Assembly (NCBI GenBank): GCA_902587085.1
Contig: CACIJX010000001.1
Coordinates: forward strand, 1-64,000
DNA: 64,000 nt
Source: an uncultured Pelagibacteraceae bacterium
GTDB lineage: Bacteria > Pseudomonadota > Alphaproteobacteria > Pelagibacterales > Pelagibacteraceae
Reading direction: 5' to 3'
The stretch's first letter is position 1; each line of letters opens with the position of its first letter. Positions 7,686 to 57,607 of this stretch are shown here, one piece after another. The notes beneath the pieces are model-generated. The model had not been told where the DNA came from. It searched no databases and was given only the letters and a program-made list of their open reading frames with translations. Both the position numbers and the translations under genes were made by a program.

Positions 7686-8192
7686 ATGAAACAAAAAAAC
7701 AGTTACAACTATAATGAACTAATTGAATGTGCGAACGGTAACCTCTTTGGTGAAGGGAATGCACGTTTACCGCTACCACCTATGCTTATGTTTGACAGAA
7801 TTACAGAAATAAAAACAAGTGTAGGTAAATATAAAAAAGGAATCATTAAAGCCGAACTGGATGTAAAGGATAAAATGTGGTTTTTTGATTGTCATTTTAA
7901 GGAAGACCCTGTTATGCCAGGATGTTTAGGACTAGATGCTATGTGGCAGATGGTTGGATTTTTTTTGGGATGGATTGGGGAACCGGGTAAAGGACGTGCT
8001 TTAGGTGTAAATTCTGTTAGATTTACTGGAGAAGTTCTTAAAAAAGTCAAAATGGCAACATATGAAGTTGATATGAAAAAAGTTTTAAAAACAGAGGGTG
8101 GAACAGTTGGTTTTGCAGATGGGATTTTAAAGGCAGATGGAAAACAAATATACACTGCAGAAAATTTAAAAGTAGGAGTTTACAAACAATGA
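7686..8192 (+). CDS. fabA: 3-hydroxydecanoyl-ACP dehydratase/isomerase FabA
   Basis: FabA (168 residues) dehydrates 3-hydroxydecanoyl-ACP and isomerises the product to the cis-3 enoyl form, the branch point for unsaturated fatty acids. The catalytic His70 is in WFFDCHF and Asp84 in [11 protein letters not shown], the same numbering as in Escherichia coli. I use the ATG at 7686; a TTG five codons upstream is in frame but not needed. It overlaps fabB by 4 bases (ATGA), so translation is probably coupled. The gene lies divergent from irr, with 73 bases between the starts for both promoters. Confidence 0.96.
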
Positions 8193-9400
8193 AAAGAGTC
8201 GTGGTAACAGGCATAGGAATAATTTCGTGTTTAGGAAATAATCAAAAAGAAGTTTATAATTCTCTTGAAAATACAAAGTCAGGTATTTCTTTTGCAGAGG
8301 AATATAAAGAGCATAATTTGAAAAGTAATGTTCATGGAAAACCAAATATTAAACTTGAAGATCATGTTGATAGAAAGCCGCTAAGATTTATGGGCAATGG
8401 ATCTGCTTACAATTTTGTGGCTATGAAAGAAGCTTTGCAAGACTCAGGTTTAAAAGAAAATGAAGTCAGTAATATCTCAACTGGAATGGTAATGGGTTCA
8501 GGAGGGCCTTCAATTGAAAATGTAATCTTAGCAGCTGATAAAACACGGCAAAAAAATCCAAAAAAAATGGGGCCATTTATAGTTCCCAGAACAATGGCAA
8601 GTACAGCATCTGCAACTTTAGCGGTACCTTTTAAAATAAAAGGAGTAAACTATACCATAAGTTCTGCATGTGCTACTAGCGGCCACTGCATAGGTAACGC
8701 AATGGAACTTATTCAATTTGGAAAACAAAAAATTGTTTTTGCAGGTGGAAGTGATGAGATTCATTGGGCAATGACTGCTATGTTTGATGCAATGACTGCA
8801 CTTTCCTCAAAATATAATGATACACCAGAAAAAGCATCTAGACCTTATGATAAAACGAGAGATGGATTTGTAATTGCAGGTGGGGCAGGAGTTTTGGTTT
8901 TAGAGGAAATGGAATATGCTAAATCTAGAGGGGCAAAAATTTATGCCGAATTAACAGGATATGGAGCAACTTCGGATGGATATGACATGGTCGCGCCCTC
9001 AGGTGAAGGAGCAACTCGATGTATGAATTTAGCGTTAAAAACGGCTCGAAATAAAATTGATTATATAAATGCTCATGGAACATCAACTCCCGTTGGAGAT
9101 ATAACTGAATTGCAAGCTATTGCAGGTGCTTTTAAAGATAAAATTCCAAAAATTAGTTCAACAAAATCATTATCTGGTCATCCACTGGGTGCGGCTTCTG
9201 TACATGAAGCAATATACTCTTTAATAATGATGAAAAATAATTTTATTGCTGCATCTGCCAATGTAAATGAAATGGATGAAGAAGCGAAAAAATTTCCAAT
9301 AGTAACTAAGGTTGAGAAAAACATTGCGCTAAATTCAGTAATGTCTAACAGTTTTGGTTTTGGTGGAACAAATGCAACTTTAGTTTTTGAGAAGGTTTAA
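8189..9400 (+). CDS. fabB: 3-oxoacyl-ACP synthase I FabB
   Basis: A beta-ketoacyl-ACP synthase (403 residues) that elongates the cis-unsaturated chain made by FabA. The Cys-His-His triad is Cys161 in SSACATSGH, His296 in [11 protein letters not shown] and His331 in [12 protein letters not shown]. The C-terminal [14 protein letters not shown] is typical of condensing enzymes. Its position between fabA and fabI favours FabB over FabF. It overlaps fabA by 4 bases, and fabI follows after 2 bases. Confidence 0.95.
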
Positions 9401-53094: not shown

Positions 53095-54429
53095 TTATTT
53101 ACCGATACAAAAGTCCTGGAATATAGATCCCAGTATTTCTTCCACATCAACCTTGCCTACTATGCTTCCAAGATGTCTTGTGGCAAGTCTAAGGTCTTCT
53201 GCGGCTGTCTCTATCTCTTTTTTTTGATCTTTCTTTAAAAATTTTTCTATTTCCTTTAATGCTGCATTAAGTTTTGCTCGATGCCTCTCTCTTGTAACTA
53301 AAATATTGTTCGCTTTCATAAATTTTTTACTTAGCTTCTCTTTTATTGTCTTTATGAGTCTGTCGATGTTTTTACTATTTTTAACCGATATTAAAATTTG
53401 ATCATTCTTCTTAAATTCATTTTTTGGGGTTTTTTTGCTTAAATCGGATTTATTAAAAACTAATATACAGTCTTTATTAATTAATTTTTTGACATCCTTA
53501 TTAATTGTTTTTTTTGATACATCAACCATGACTAAGGTCAAATCAGCCTCTTTTGCTTTTTTAATAGCTCTTTTAATACCCTCTTTTTCGACCTTATTTT
53601 TGGCCTTTCTTATACCCGCCGTGTCAGCCAAAATAACAGGATATCCATCTATATTTAAATAGGTTTCAACCACATCTCTTGTAGTACCTTCCTCCTCCGA
53701 GACGATTGCAGCATCCCTTTTTGCAAGAAGATTTAATAAAGATGACTTCCCAGCGTTAACGTCTCCTATTATAGATATTCTAAAACCATCTCTAATTTTT
53801 TCCCCAACTTTTTGGTCCTCCAGAATTTGTTTAATATCAGTGTGGACTTGTTTAATTGATTTCTGAACTTCCTTTAAAACACTTCCAGGAAGGTCATCTT
53901 CTGCAAAGTCTATTTTAGCCTCTATATAGGATAATGATTTTACTAGTTTTTCTCTTAAGTTTTCATAATATTTGGATGCATGTCCTTGAACTAAATTTGC
54001 TGCTTGTTCCCTTTGAAGCTCAGTTTCAGCATGAATTAAATCTCCTATACTTTCTGCCTTAACTAAATCTATCTTATTATTTTGAAAAGCAATTTTAGTG
54101 AACTCTCCAGGTTCAGCTAATCTACAGTTTTTCTGATCTGATAATACTTTTAAAAGATAACTTATTACAGCATTACTTCCATGGATATGTAACTCCGCCA
54201 AATCATCACCTGTAAAGCTATTAGGCTTGGGGAACCACAATAGTATTGCTTCTGGATCAATAATTTTTTTACTTTTTGGATCAATAAATTTGCATAAATT
54301 TATCTCTTTTGACTTTATATTTCTTTGATCTGTAATAGTTTTGCATATATCTAAGGTTTGCGATCCTGATATTCTAATAATGGCTATGCCACTCGGGCCT
54401 TTTCCTGTTGATAGAGCATATATATTCAT
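53095..54429 (-). CDS. mnmE: tRNA modification GTPase MnmE
   Basis: MnmE (444 residues) pairs with MnmG to modify U34. The N-terminal tetrahydrofolate-binding domain starts IYALSTGKGPSGIAIIRISG. The G domain contains GDVNAGKSSLLN, DTAGIRKAKNKVEKEG and NKSD. The family C-terminal motif ending in a Cys is present as FCIGK, preceded by VEEILGSIFQD. It is divergent from the ogt gene, with 35 bases between the starts. Confidence 0.97.
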   Translation of the reverse strand: MNIYALSTGKGPSGIAIIRISGSQTLDICKTITDQRNIKSKEINLCKFIDPKSKKIIDPEAILLWFPKPNSFTGDDLAELHIHGSNAVISYLLKVLSDQKNCRLAEPGEFTKIAFQNNKIDLVKAESIGDLIHAETELQREQAANLVQGHASKYYENLREKLVKSLSYIEAKIDFAEDDLPGSVLKEVQKSIKQVHTDIKQILEDQKVGEKIRDGFRISIIGDVNAGKSSLLNLLAKRDAAIVSEEEGTTRDVVETYLNIDGYPVILADTAGIRKAKNKVEKEGIKRAIKKAKEADLTLVMVDVSKKTINKDVKKLINKDCILVFNKSDLSKKTPKNEFKKNDQILISVKNSKNIDRLIKTIKEKLSKKFMKANNILVTRERHRAKLNAALKEIEKFLKKDQKKEIETAAEDLRLATRHLGSIVGKVDVEEILGSIFQDFCIGK

Positions 54430-54464
54430 TTGTATTTTTTCTGTTTTTTCATAACATAAAATAT

Positions 54465-54929
54465 ATGGAAAATACTATTTCTTTTAATACTAAGTTTGGC
54501 TGGATTTCTGCAACTGAAATAGACAATAAAATAACAAAAATTCAGTTTAATAAGGAAAAAAATAAGGGCAAAAACAGCAAAAATCTTAGGATTCTAAAAA
54601 AAAGCGTAATCTCTTATTTTAAATCAAAGAAACAAATTAAAATTCCAATTAAAATTAATGGAAATAAAATGCAAAAGAAGATTTGGAACGAATTAAAAAA
54701 AATTAGAACAGGTAAAACAAAAACTTATGGTGAGATTGCTAGAAAGTTAGGGATTTCACCAAGATATGTTGGGCGAGTATGTGGAGAAAACAAACACATT
54801 TTAATAATACCCTGCCACCGAGTGATTAGATCCGACGGCTACTTAGGTGGTTTTTCTGCAGAGGGAGGGTTAAAACTAAAGGAAAAACTACTTAAATTTG
54901 AAAGATCTGTAAAAGACTATTTGTTCTGA
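54465..54929 (+). CDS. ogt: Methylated-DNA-protein cysteine methyltransferase
   Basis: An O6-alkylguanine DNA repair protein of 154 residues that accepts the alkyl group on its own Cys. The active site is IIPCHRVIRSDG, and the helix-turn-helix region TKTYGEIARKLGISPRYVGRVCG is typical. The N-terminal domain is short and varied. I use the ATG at 54465; an in-frame start upstream would overlap mnmE. The end overlaps the convergent radical SAM gene by 13 bases. It lies in an insertion between rho and mnmE. Confidence 0.92.
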   Translation: MENTISFNTKFGWISATEIDNKITKIQFNKEKNKGKNSKNLRILKKSVISYFKSKKQIKIPIKINGNKMQKKIWNELKKIRTGKTKTYGEIARKLGISPRYVGRVCGENKHILIIPCHRVIRSDGYLGGFSAEGGLKLKEKLLKFERSVKDYLF

Positions 54930-56281
54930 AGACTGTCAACCATATCCATCCACTTTTTATTACCATCAGTATGCCTATGATATCCTTTTCCAATTTTAGC
55001 TTCAGGATAAACTTGAAGATTTTTTTTATTTAAAGTGTGAAGTGGAGCACCTTCTATTTCGGCTGTCCCGGACTCTTGGATTGTAGTAAAACCGACGTCA
55101 GAAATATATTTTTTAGTTTCAAGCATGTTCTCTTTAGTTTCACCAGGCAAACCGTATGTAAATGTTCCATGTACTGTCATGCCTAAAGATTGGATATATT
55201 GAACTATTTCTTTTGTATAATTTAAATCTAAATGTTTGTTTACTATTTTGTCGACGACATATTGACTGCCGGACTCCACTCCTATTTTTACTCCTTTACA
55301 TCCACTCTCACTCATAATTTTCCAGGTATCTTTTCTAATGGTGTCAGCTCTACACATTGCATACCAGGGTATTTTAAACTCGCTCATTATTTCACACATA
55401 TCAGTAGTATGCTTGTTTCCAATATTAAAAGTATCATCATCAAAATATATGGTTTTAAATTTAAATTTTTCTAACAATTGCCCAATAAAATTTCTCATAT
55501 AACTTTTCGAATATTGTCTCACAGTTCTTGATTTGGTACCCTCGGGATCATTTCCTGTCATTGAGGCCGGCCAAACACAAAAAATACATTTAAATGGGCA
55601 TCCTCTACTACTCCAGATATGCGCTTGCGGAAAAAAAGCCCCCATGGTTGCAGGATTTCCATCAAAATAATTATCGTAATTTAATTCGTCAAAGTAAGGA
55701 AATGGAGAATTATTCATTTCCTCAAGAGTTAGAAGGTCATGTTCTAAAATTCCTTTTTGACCATTGAGAACCTTAATTGTATTTTTTTCATATTCTCCCT
55801 TTAAAGCAGCGTAAATTTCTTTACAATTTTTAAATTTTTCTGGTTCTGAACTTATGGGCCCAGCTACTATTATTTTTAAATGAGGATATTTAGATTTTAT
55901 TTCTTGTATTAAACTATAATCGTGTTTCCAGCTTGGAGTTGCAGTTTCAATTAATAAGTATTCAATTTTATTTTTTATCTTATCCAAATAATTAAAATAA
56001 CTTTTATAAGACTCAGATATTCCAATACTGTCTCTAAAAAAAACATTATTTTTTCCAATTTTTTCTTGAGCATAGGTAGTGGCGTAACCTAAAAAATAAG
56101 GGTAGGGTGTATAATCTTTAGGATGTCTTTTATCTGGTCTAGATTTATTGACCATTGTAAGTGGCCACCTTGAACCTGCTCTTACTCCTCTTCTCCATCT
56201 TTTTCTTTTAAAAAGCTTCTTCCAGCCTGGACGACTTTCTTTCCCTTCCCACCAAGGTGGGTTACTAAAAAATATACTCAT
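54917..56281 (-). CDS. B12-binding-type radical SAM protein of unknown substrate
   Basis: A 454-residue protein. The N-terminal 180 residues have a B12-binding-like fold (after RAGSRWPLTMV and FRDSIGISESYKSYF), but the usual DxHxxG cobalamin His motif is not visible. The radical SAM cluster is CPFKCIFC in SSRGCPFKCIFCVWPASMTG. Downstream IYFDDDTFNIG, KIGVESGSQYVVDKIVNK and TFTYGLPGETKENM are typical of this class. The substrate is unknown; methylation, thiolation or a lipid/sugar reaction are possible. It follows rho after 54 bases in the same direction and is not part of the conserved block. Confidence 0.82.
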   Translation of the reverse strand: MSIFFSNPPWWEGKESRPGWKKLFKRKRWRRGVRAGSRWPLTMVNKSRPDKRHPKDYTPYPYFLGYATTYAQEKIGKNNVFFRDSIGISESYKSYFNYLDKIKNKIEYLLIETATPSWKHDYSLIQEIKSKYPHLKIIVAGPISSEPEKFKNCKEIYAALKGEYEKNTIKVLNGQKGILEHDLLTLEEMNNSPFPYFDELNYDNYFDGNPATMGAFFPQAHIWSSRGCPFKCIFCVWPASMTGNDPEGTKSRTVRQYSKSYMRNFIGQLLEKFKFKTIYFDDDTFNIGNKHTTDMCEIMSEFKIPWYAMCRADTIRKDTWKIMSESGCKGVKIGVESGSQYVVDKIVNKHLDLNYTKEIVQYIQSLGMTVHGTFTYGLPGETKENMLETKKYISDVGFTTIQESGTAEIEGAPLHTLNKKNLQVYPEAKIGKGYHRHTDGNKKWMDMVDSLQNK

Positions 56282-56335
56282 AAGAATTAACTATATTACA
56301 ATAATTAGAACTTAAAAATTGATTATTTCTTTTGT

Positions 56336-57607
56336 TTAGCCTGGTTTGTTCATTGAAACAAAGAAGTCGGCGTTATTTTTCGTGTTTTTAAGCTTAGACA
56401 TTAAAAATTCAATTCCATCCATGGTCCCCATTGGACTTACTATTCTTCTTAGAACATTTACTTTTGCTAAATCTTCTTTTTTGAATAATAGCTCCTCTCT
56501 TCTTGTGCCTGAACGTGTAATATCAATTGCCGGGTAAATTCTTTTATCAGCAATTTTTCTATCTAAAATTAATTCAGAATTTCCTGTTCCTTTAAATTCC
56601 TCGAATATAACTTCATCCATTCTGCTACCTGTATCAATTAGAGCTGTAGAAATTATTGTGAGAGAACCTCCTTGCTCGACATTTCTGGCAGCTCCAAAAA
56701 ATCTTTTTGGACGTTGAAGTGCATTTGCATCTACACCTCCAGTTAATACTTTGCCTGAGCTTGGAACAACCGCATTGTATGCCCTGCCTAATCTAGTGAT
56801 TGAGTCCAGTAAAATTACTACATGTTTTTTATGTTCAACTAATCTTTTTGCTTTTTCAATTACCATTTCTGCAACAGCAACGTGTCTCGATGCAGGTTCA
56901 TCAAAAGTAGAACTTATAACTTCACCTTTAACTGTTCTCTGCATGTCAGTAACTTCTTCGGGTCTTTCGTCTATAAGCAATACCATTAGATAACATTCTG
57001 GATGATTTGTTGCGAGGGAATGAGCAATGTTTTGAAGTATAATTGTTTTTCCTGCTTTAGGAGGAGAAATTATTAAAGACCGTTGACCCTTTCCTATCGG
57101 GCTAACTAAATCAATAAGTCTAGCAGTCTGATCGGGTTTTTTCTCTGTTGTATTTTTTTCAACTTCCATTTGAAGTTGTTTATCAGGATACAGTGGAGTT
57201 AAATTGTCAAAGGCAATTTTATTTCTAACCTTTTCGGGACTTTCAAAATTGATTTGACCAACTTTCAATAAAGCAAAATATCTTTCTGCATCTTTTGGTG
57301 CTCTAATTTCTCCTTCAACTGAGTCGCCAGTTCTTAATCCAAATTTCCTAATTTGGCTTGGACTAACATATATATCATCCGGACCTGGAAGATAGTTAGA
57401 CTCTATAGCTCTCAGGAAACCAAAGCCGTCCTGCAGTACTTCGAGAACTCCTCCTCCGGTAATTTGCTCATTTTTTTCTGCTAATTTTTTAAGTATTGAA
57501 AAAAGTATTTCTTGCTTTCTTAAAGTGCTTGGATTCTCTATACCAAGCTTCTCAGCTTTCGAGATAAGCTCTGATGGCGAATTTTGCTTGAGTTCTTGTA
57601 AATTCAT
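56336..57607 (-). CDS. rho: Transcription termination factor Rho
   Basis: Rho (423 residues) is a hexameric RNA-dependent ATPase. The RNA-binding part includes [17 protein letters not shown]. The ATPase shows [15 protein letters not shown] (P-loop), [13 protein letters not shown] and [13 protein letters not shown]. The Q- and R-loops are also intact ([20 protein letters not shown]). It lies after hemJ with 62 bases between. Confidence 0.98.

Follow-up and report, generated by a model that had tools for sequence, protein, structure and literature searches.

To our knowledge, few radical SAM enzymes have sugar substrates, and most of these come from the biosynthesis of antibiotics and hopanoids. 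AprD4, a radical SAM 1,2-diol dehydratase of apramycin biosynthesis, deoxygenates paromamine together with the NADPH-dependent reductase AprD3 (PMC5461906). HpnJ converts a glucosamine derivative to bacteriohopanetetrol cyclitol ether (PMC12583986) and is counted among the non-methylating cobalamin-dependent enzymes (PMC13142503). Hypervariable regions of surface-glycan genes are known in SAR11 (PMC2217521, PMC7318151). SAR11 myophages carry cassettes of glycosyltransferase and radical SAM genes in a host-recognition cluster (PMC7029224), and a virulence-linked radical SAM/glycosyltransferase/epimerase block in Brachyspira has a similar gene set (PMC4267127), a likeness by gene content only.

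We analyzed a stretch of 64,000 nucleotides (the window) from a SAR11 genome (G000; 700,770 bases in 44 contigs, 58.55% complete), in which a radical SAM gene lies between rho and mnmE. The features of this part of the window are as follows.

53095 to 54429, minus strand: mnmE, the other border of the variable slot (window ORFs, junctions of relatives).
54465 to 54929, plus strand: MGMT (methylated-DNA--protein-cysteine methyltransferase), 154 aa, the ancestral neighbor of mnmE (ORF, Pfam/NCBIfam, relatives).
54810 to 54824, plus strand: PCHRV active-site motif of MGMT, with Cys117 (sequence).
54917 to 56281, minus strand: radical SAM protein, 454 aa, with an N-terminal B12-binding-like (Rossmann) domain (ORF, Pfam, family search).
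55352 to 55354, minus strand: Cys310 of the radical SAM protein, a candidate catalytic residue (alignment).
55577 to 55600, minus strand: CxxxCxxC motif C228-C232-C235 (CPFKCIFC), the predicted [4Fe-4S] cluster site (family alignment).
55682 to 56281, minus strand: N-terminal domain of the radical SAM protein, about residues 1-200 (alignment, model, PF02310 scan).
56336 to 57607, minus strand: rho, which the radical SAM gene follows after 54 bases in the same direction.

The order of rho, the radical SAM gene, MGMT and mnmE is as the first-pass annotation described it, flanked by hemJ and hemH on the upstream side and by mnmG on the downstream side. Both ORFs are real and intact, and the two genes are convergent, with a tail-to-tail overlap of 13 bases (54917-54929). 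The radical SAM protein belongs to its superfamily by a PF04055 match at residues 225-392 (55.7 bits; cut-off, 29.5) and by the CxxxCxxC motif. MGMT, which had been read as an alkyl-DNA repair protein, proved to be an ordinary member of that family, since it exceeds the cut-offs of PF01035 (90.5 bits against 27) and of TIGR00589, the Ogt/Ada C-terminal domain model (81.9 bits against 46.4), and keeps the PCHRV motif.

The two genes had been taken for a pair inserted into a conserved rho-mnmE run. We found that neither the pair nor the run holds up in relatives. Of the 19 genus genomes in which a flank of mnmE could be read, 15 have MGMT next to mnmE, with a 281-aa ORF in between in one of them, and 12 of these 15 have no radical SAM gene at that place. 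No relative with a readable junction has rho directly adjacent to mnmE, so the order as such no longer keeps the run intact; in another family of the order, several genes separate rho from mnmE, and in G037 MGMT is one of them and lies near mnmE. Among 31 genus genomes, only G000, G002 and G004 have a close orthologue of the radical SAM gene (100, 88 and 79% identity; next best match 38%, partial); it lies directly after rho in all three, with MGMT also in the slot. Presence at this place in relatives is thus the rule for MGMT but not for the radical SAM gene, which is the accessory element of the site.

Other genomes of the genus fill the slot differently. Among those with rho and mnmE close together on a single stretch, five (G007, G012, G016, G018 and G019) have a glycosyltransferase/membrane cassette of a 126-aa and a roughly 400-aa ORF, neither with a Pfam match in a scan of the L165 copies, plus a GT2 glycosyltransferase; MGMT is also present in G018 and G019. 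Two methyltransferase-like genes lie between rho and mnmE in G024. In ten genomes (G001, G003, G006, G008, G010, G013, G017, G021, G022 and G023), MGMT beside mnmE is followed by a UbiH-like gene and ftsK, an order to which G006 adds the GT2 cassette and G001 and G021 add a pterin dehydratase gene. Since slot contents differ in this way across the genus, MGMT is an old resident beside mnmE, outside the accessory gene. The slot itself is variable and mostly given to surface-glycan genes, and the radical SAM gene is one alternative among several in it. A functional link between MGMT and the radical SAM gene was considered and ruled out, as most genus genomes have MGMT without the radical SAM gene.

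Taken over the junctions (53095-57607 in the window; L157-L174), the slot shows at least three alternative gene contents and a rearranged MGMT-UbiH-FtsK form. Hypervariable region 2 of SAR11, where surface polysaccharide genes lie between the 23S and 5S rRNA genes (PMC2217521), likewise varies in surface-glycan gene content; the mnmE-rho slot, however, lies elsewhere and contains just one to four genes.

The description of the radical SAM enzyme as unassigned stands: it passes no curated NCBIfam cut-off, RefSeq names its Azospirillum relatives only 'radical SAM protein', and we found no paper in the open-access literature that assigns a function to the family. The enzyme is no orphan: its family is large and strongly conserved, and the genes around it point consistently to surface glycans. 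In GTDB genomes, a scan gave 45 relatives at 50-88% identity and three more at 32-34%, while 12 IMG/VR contigs carry members at 51-55% and Azospirillum plasmids carry members at 49%. The family is found in SAR11, Rhodospirillales, Azospirillum plasmids, Magnetococcia, cyanobacteria, Opitutaceae and phages, and the nearest named relatives by this gene are the Pelagibacteraceae single-cell genome AG-439-O05 (L091) and the metagenome-assembled genome IIa.A_ETNP2013_S06_SV43_300m_MAG_01 (L092). An alignment of 36 members shows a tight, unnamed family (about 50-88% identity at full length) with about 100 invariant residues, and C228, C232 and C235 are unchanged in all 36. Its signature stretches are NPPWWE, GVRAGSRWP, FRDSIALRESY, TPSWxHD and KGEYEKG in the N-terminal part, and further SSRGCPFKCIFCVWPAxMTGNDPDG, YFDDDTFNxGN, PWxAMCRADT, VHGTFTYGLPGET and QESGTAEIEGTPL.

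In the tree, a branch of 3.6 changes per site separates the family from its Nitrospirota relatives (support 100/100). Copies from SAR11 cluster in a single clade (100/100) joined to cyanobacteria (96/90), and Alphaproteobacteria and Magnetococcia form a separate group with Geomonas (97/99). Since the SAR11 copies group with cyanobacteria and not with Alphaproteobacteria, the tree points to a horizontal gain of the gene by a SAR11 ancestor. The three rho-adjacent copies are under purifying selection (NG86 dN 0.07-0.14; dS above 2, saturated), and the GC content of the gene, 32.7% against 30.5% for the window, is roughly that of the genome. A recent foreign insertion of odd composition was ruled out, as GC content and tree mark an old SAR11 gene. 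A remnant of a phage or mobile element was likewise rejected for this site; the best PHROG match of the radical SAM protein is a weak one to a dehydrogenase (E 0.0011). One alphaproteobacterial glycan region (L128) holds two diverged copies of the family, at 454-1839 and 8001-9350.

Among NCBIfam models, HpnJ ranks best for the window protein, followed by PhpK, Sden_1168, ApyD and AprD4. The HpnJ model (TIGR03471) gives 148.6 bits against a cut-off of 577.6 (E 2.6e-43), and the two proteins have the two-domain layout and the AGSR and HGTF motifs in common; however, HpnJ, which acts on a glucosamine unit, is about 27% identical over residues 102-421 only, has other gene neighbors, and in its Paraburkholderia form branches far away from the family in the tree. 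The cobalamin-dependent P-methyltransferases PhpK and Sden_1168 are alike in the radical SAM core (103 and 77 bits), but their cut-offs of 600 and 575 are far from reached and no phosphinate genes occur among the neighbors examined. AprD4 scores 67.4 bits against a cut-off of 500 with its model NF033070, yet profile and fold searches both give it as the closest solved structure, and its substrate is a sugar. Its entry 6fd2 is the best PDB match in a profile search (E 4.2e-20), and Foldseek with an AlphaFold2 model of the radical SAM protein (pLDDT 87.4, pTM 0.89) returned AprD4 first (E 2.8e-18, TM 0.66, 17% identity) and then MgmA, MiaB and OxsB, so that the predicted model has the overall fold of AprD4. 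AprD4 works with the reductase AprD3, and the two partner SDRs in SAR11, SDR_A and SDR_B, match CDP-tyvelose 2-epimerase best in the PDB (1orr, 9rl0). The best explanation places the family as a sister group to sugar-acting enzymes of the HpnJ/AprD4 type.

The neighbor survey proposed with the first annotation gave a consistent surface-glycan context around the family. We compared 73 proteins encoded within two genes of a family member with 71 encoded five or more genes away, all from non-SAR11 cellular genomes and with genes called by a simple codon-bias script, which limits precision. Epimerase matches were found in 12 of the 73 near and 3 of the 71 far proteins, and GT2 matches in 8 and 2, respectively; the near set also held nine GT1_4 and four Flagellin_C matches. 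In the other SAR11 clade, a GT2 gene lies directly downstream of the radical SAM gene in all 19 loci, and SDR_A and SDR_B are both present in 15 of them. Both also occur in L119, L122, L124, L126, L128, L133 and L134, and L131 and L135 have SDR_A only. The SDR pair is again found beside the radical SAM gene in Rhodospirillales, Magnetococcia and Azospirillum plasmids. The Azospirillum brasilense Sp7 plasmid and two other Azospirillum plasmids have a pair of epimerase-family SDRs beside the radical SAM gene, while Calothrix, Eremiobacterota and Geomonas carry a cassette of nucleotide-sugar dehydrogenase and SDR_D.

On the Sp7 plasmid ABSP7_p5 (L207), the SDR-SDR-radical SAM genes, whose order is the same in the two other Azospirillum plasmids, adjoin large glycosyltransferase genes and a gene for a carbohydrate-binding-domain protein, and genes annotated 'uridine kinase' and 'molybdenum storage protein subunit alpha' also lie near the radical SAM gene.

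In tailed phages (L139-L150), the cassette directly follows the major head protein and includes glycosyltransferase-like, methyltransferase-like and radical SAM genes, with an SDR in some and none in others. A 212-aa GT-A-like protein is encoded near the radical SAM gene in 12 of 12 phage contigs, and a 212-aa GT-A-like protein is also encoded directly downstream of the radical SAM gene in three Opitutaceae loci (L117, L120 and L123), in two of which (L117 and L120) flagellin genes lie upstream. Sequence search gave no solved relative of the 212-aa partner, and by fold it resembles a GT-A type glycosyltransferase (E 2.7e-4, with a weak model of pLDDT 69). The Opitutaceae protein is a homologue of the phage one at 44-45% identity, and its gene and the radical SAM gene form a bacterial version of the phage gene pair.

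The window's own genus departs from this pattern, as the radical SAM gene stands alone after rho. SDR_B of the genus is 64-80% identical to that of other genus members and the SAR11 reference, and it lies near UppP or gltBD in most carriers. Two radical SAM carriers, G002 and G004, have SDR_B on contigs other than that of the radical SAM gene, and SDR_A is partial at a contig end in G002 and was not found in G004. G000 yielded no close copy of either SDR, in an assembly that is missing the gltB/SDR_B region. SDR_B was also found in nine genus genomes that gave no radical SAM orthologue; the SDRs are thus independent of the radical SAM gene. Since the SDRs sit elsewhere in the genus and occur without the orthologue, the radical SAM gene in this lineage is detached from its usual partners and optional. 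Across phyla the partner SDR types differ while the radical SAM enzyme is nearly uniform, and a common glycan substrate therefore fits better than one fixed SDR intermediate.

A glycan role is well supported by AprD4 and HpnJ as the closest matches, by the epimerase, GT2 and flagellin neighbors, by the phage cassettes, and by the GT2/membrane or methyltransferase genes in sister slots. The radical SAM gene is very probably an accessory surface-glycan gene. Since close relatives sit in surface polysaccharide and flagellin clusters and in phages, the best explanation, in our view (probability roughly 0.6), is that the enzyme modifies a surface-glycan sugar by radical chemistry of the HpnJ/AprD4 kind. 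We infer the sugar substrate, the type of reaction and the order of steps as follows. The enzyme would combine the B12-binding-like Rossmann domain with a radical SAM barrel, in which the cluster held by C228, C232 and C235 would cleave SAM. The resulting 5'-deoxyadenosyl radical would abstract a hydrogen from a hexose or hexosamine unit, which may be linked to a nucleotide, a lipid or a glycan, and the sugar radical would then rearrange, by dehydration or deoxygenation as in AprD4 or by ring contraction as in HpnJ. Before or after the radical step, a CDP-tyvelose-2-epimerase-type SDR may act and set the final sugar, which a glycosyltransferase would add to surface polysaccharide, LPS or flagellin. 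The probable reaction is a radical sugar rearrangement, for example a deoxygenation or ring contraction.

The similarity to HpnJ might be taken to mean a true HpnJ-like enzyme of hopanoid ring contraction, given the best NCBIfam model and the common motifs. We strongly disfavor this reading: the score is far below the HpnJ cut-off, Paraburkholderia HpnJ lies far outside the family tree, no hpnI/hpnK-type neighbors occur at the window junction or were recognized in family loci, and the family is carried by phages and flagellin loci. The one organism that might speak for it is Skermanella aerolata (L124), which has a family member and is reported to make cyclitol-ether hopanoids although no hpnJ was detected (PMC12583986), probably a coincidence. 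A radical sugar epimerase, which would invert one hexose carbon in a glycan with Cys310 returning the hydrogen atom, is a minor possibility. Cysteine serves as the hydrogen donor in known radical SAM epimerases, and Cys310 is invariant in the 36 tight-family members and present in the L128 paralogue and in Azospirillum, while the position is Ala or Val in the Nitrospirota, Omnitrophota and Lawsonia relatives and in HpnJ, and Thr in AprD4. This invariance within the family and not in outgroups is a lead only, with Cys310 a candidate from alignment, and the enzyme shows no above-cut-off similarity to a known epimerase family.

The N-terminal domain bears on a further reading, in which the enzyme would be a cobalamin-dependent methyltransferase and form a C-methyl sugar of the surface glycan. 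The enzyme had been called B12-domain-like without an obvious cobalamin His. PF02310 (B12-binding) matches 27 of 36 family members (E ≤ 1; best E 2.2e-8) but not the window protein, whose sequence has no DxHxxG motif. All tight-family members keep His120, which the Nitrospirota and Omnitrophota relatives lack. On its own, the missing cobalamin His counts for little, since the protein has a Rossmann-like domain and some cobalamin-dependent radical SAM enzymes do without a His ligand. Methyl transfer is favored by the PF02310 matches, by PhpK-type methylases as the second-best NCBIfam match, and by the cobalamin-dependent OxsB, TsrM, CysS and TokK among the fold matches. The lack of DxHxxG and the closeness of AprD4 in structure count against it, as does a doubtful cobalamin supply, since 19 genus genomes searched gave no MetH or BtuB above cut-off, with sub-threshold TonB receptors in several. 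SAR11 has been reported to lack MetE and MetH (PMC12478193) and has been termed B12-auxotrophic (PMC9296465). Overall, we regard the methyltransferase reading as another minor possibility and prefer the HpnJ/AprD4-like modification of a surface sugar.

More tentatively, the family, which SAR11 has in common with cyanobacteria, tailed phages and Alphaproteobacteria of soil and plants, may carry out an undescribed radical reaction (deoxygenation, ring contraction or epimerization) on a surface-glycan sugar. The SDR-SDR-radical SAM member on plasmid ABSP7_p5 of A. brasilense Sp7 (AMK58_RS29225) is tractable, and the reaction is therefore directly testable. If the proposal is true, phages and hosts would alike alter their surface sugars by radical chemistry.
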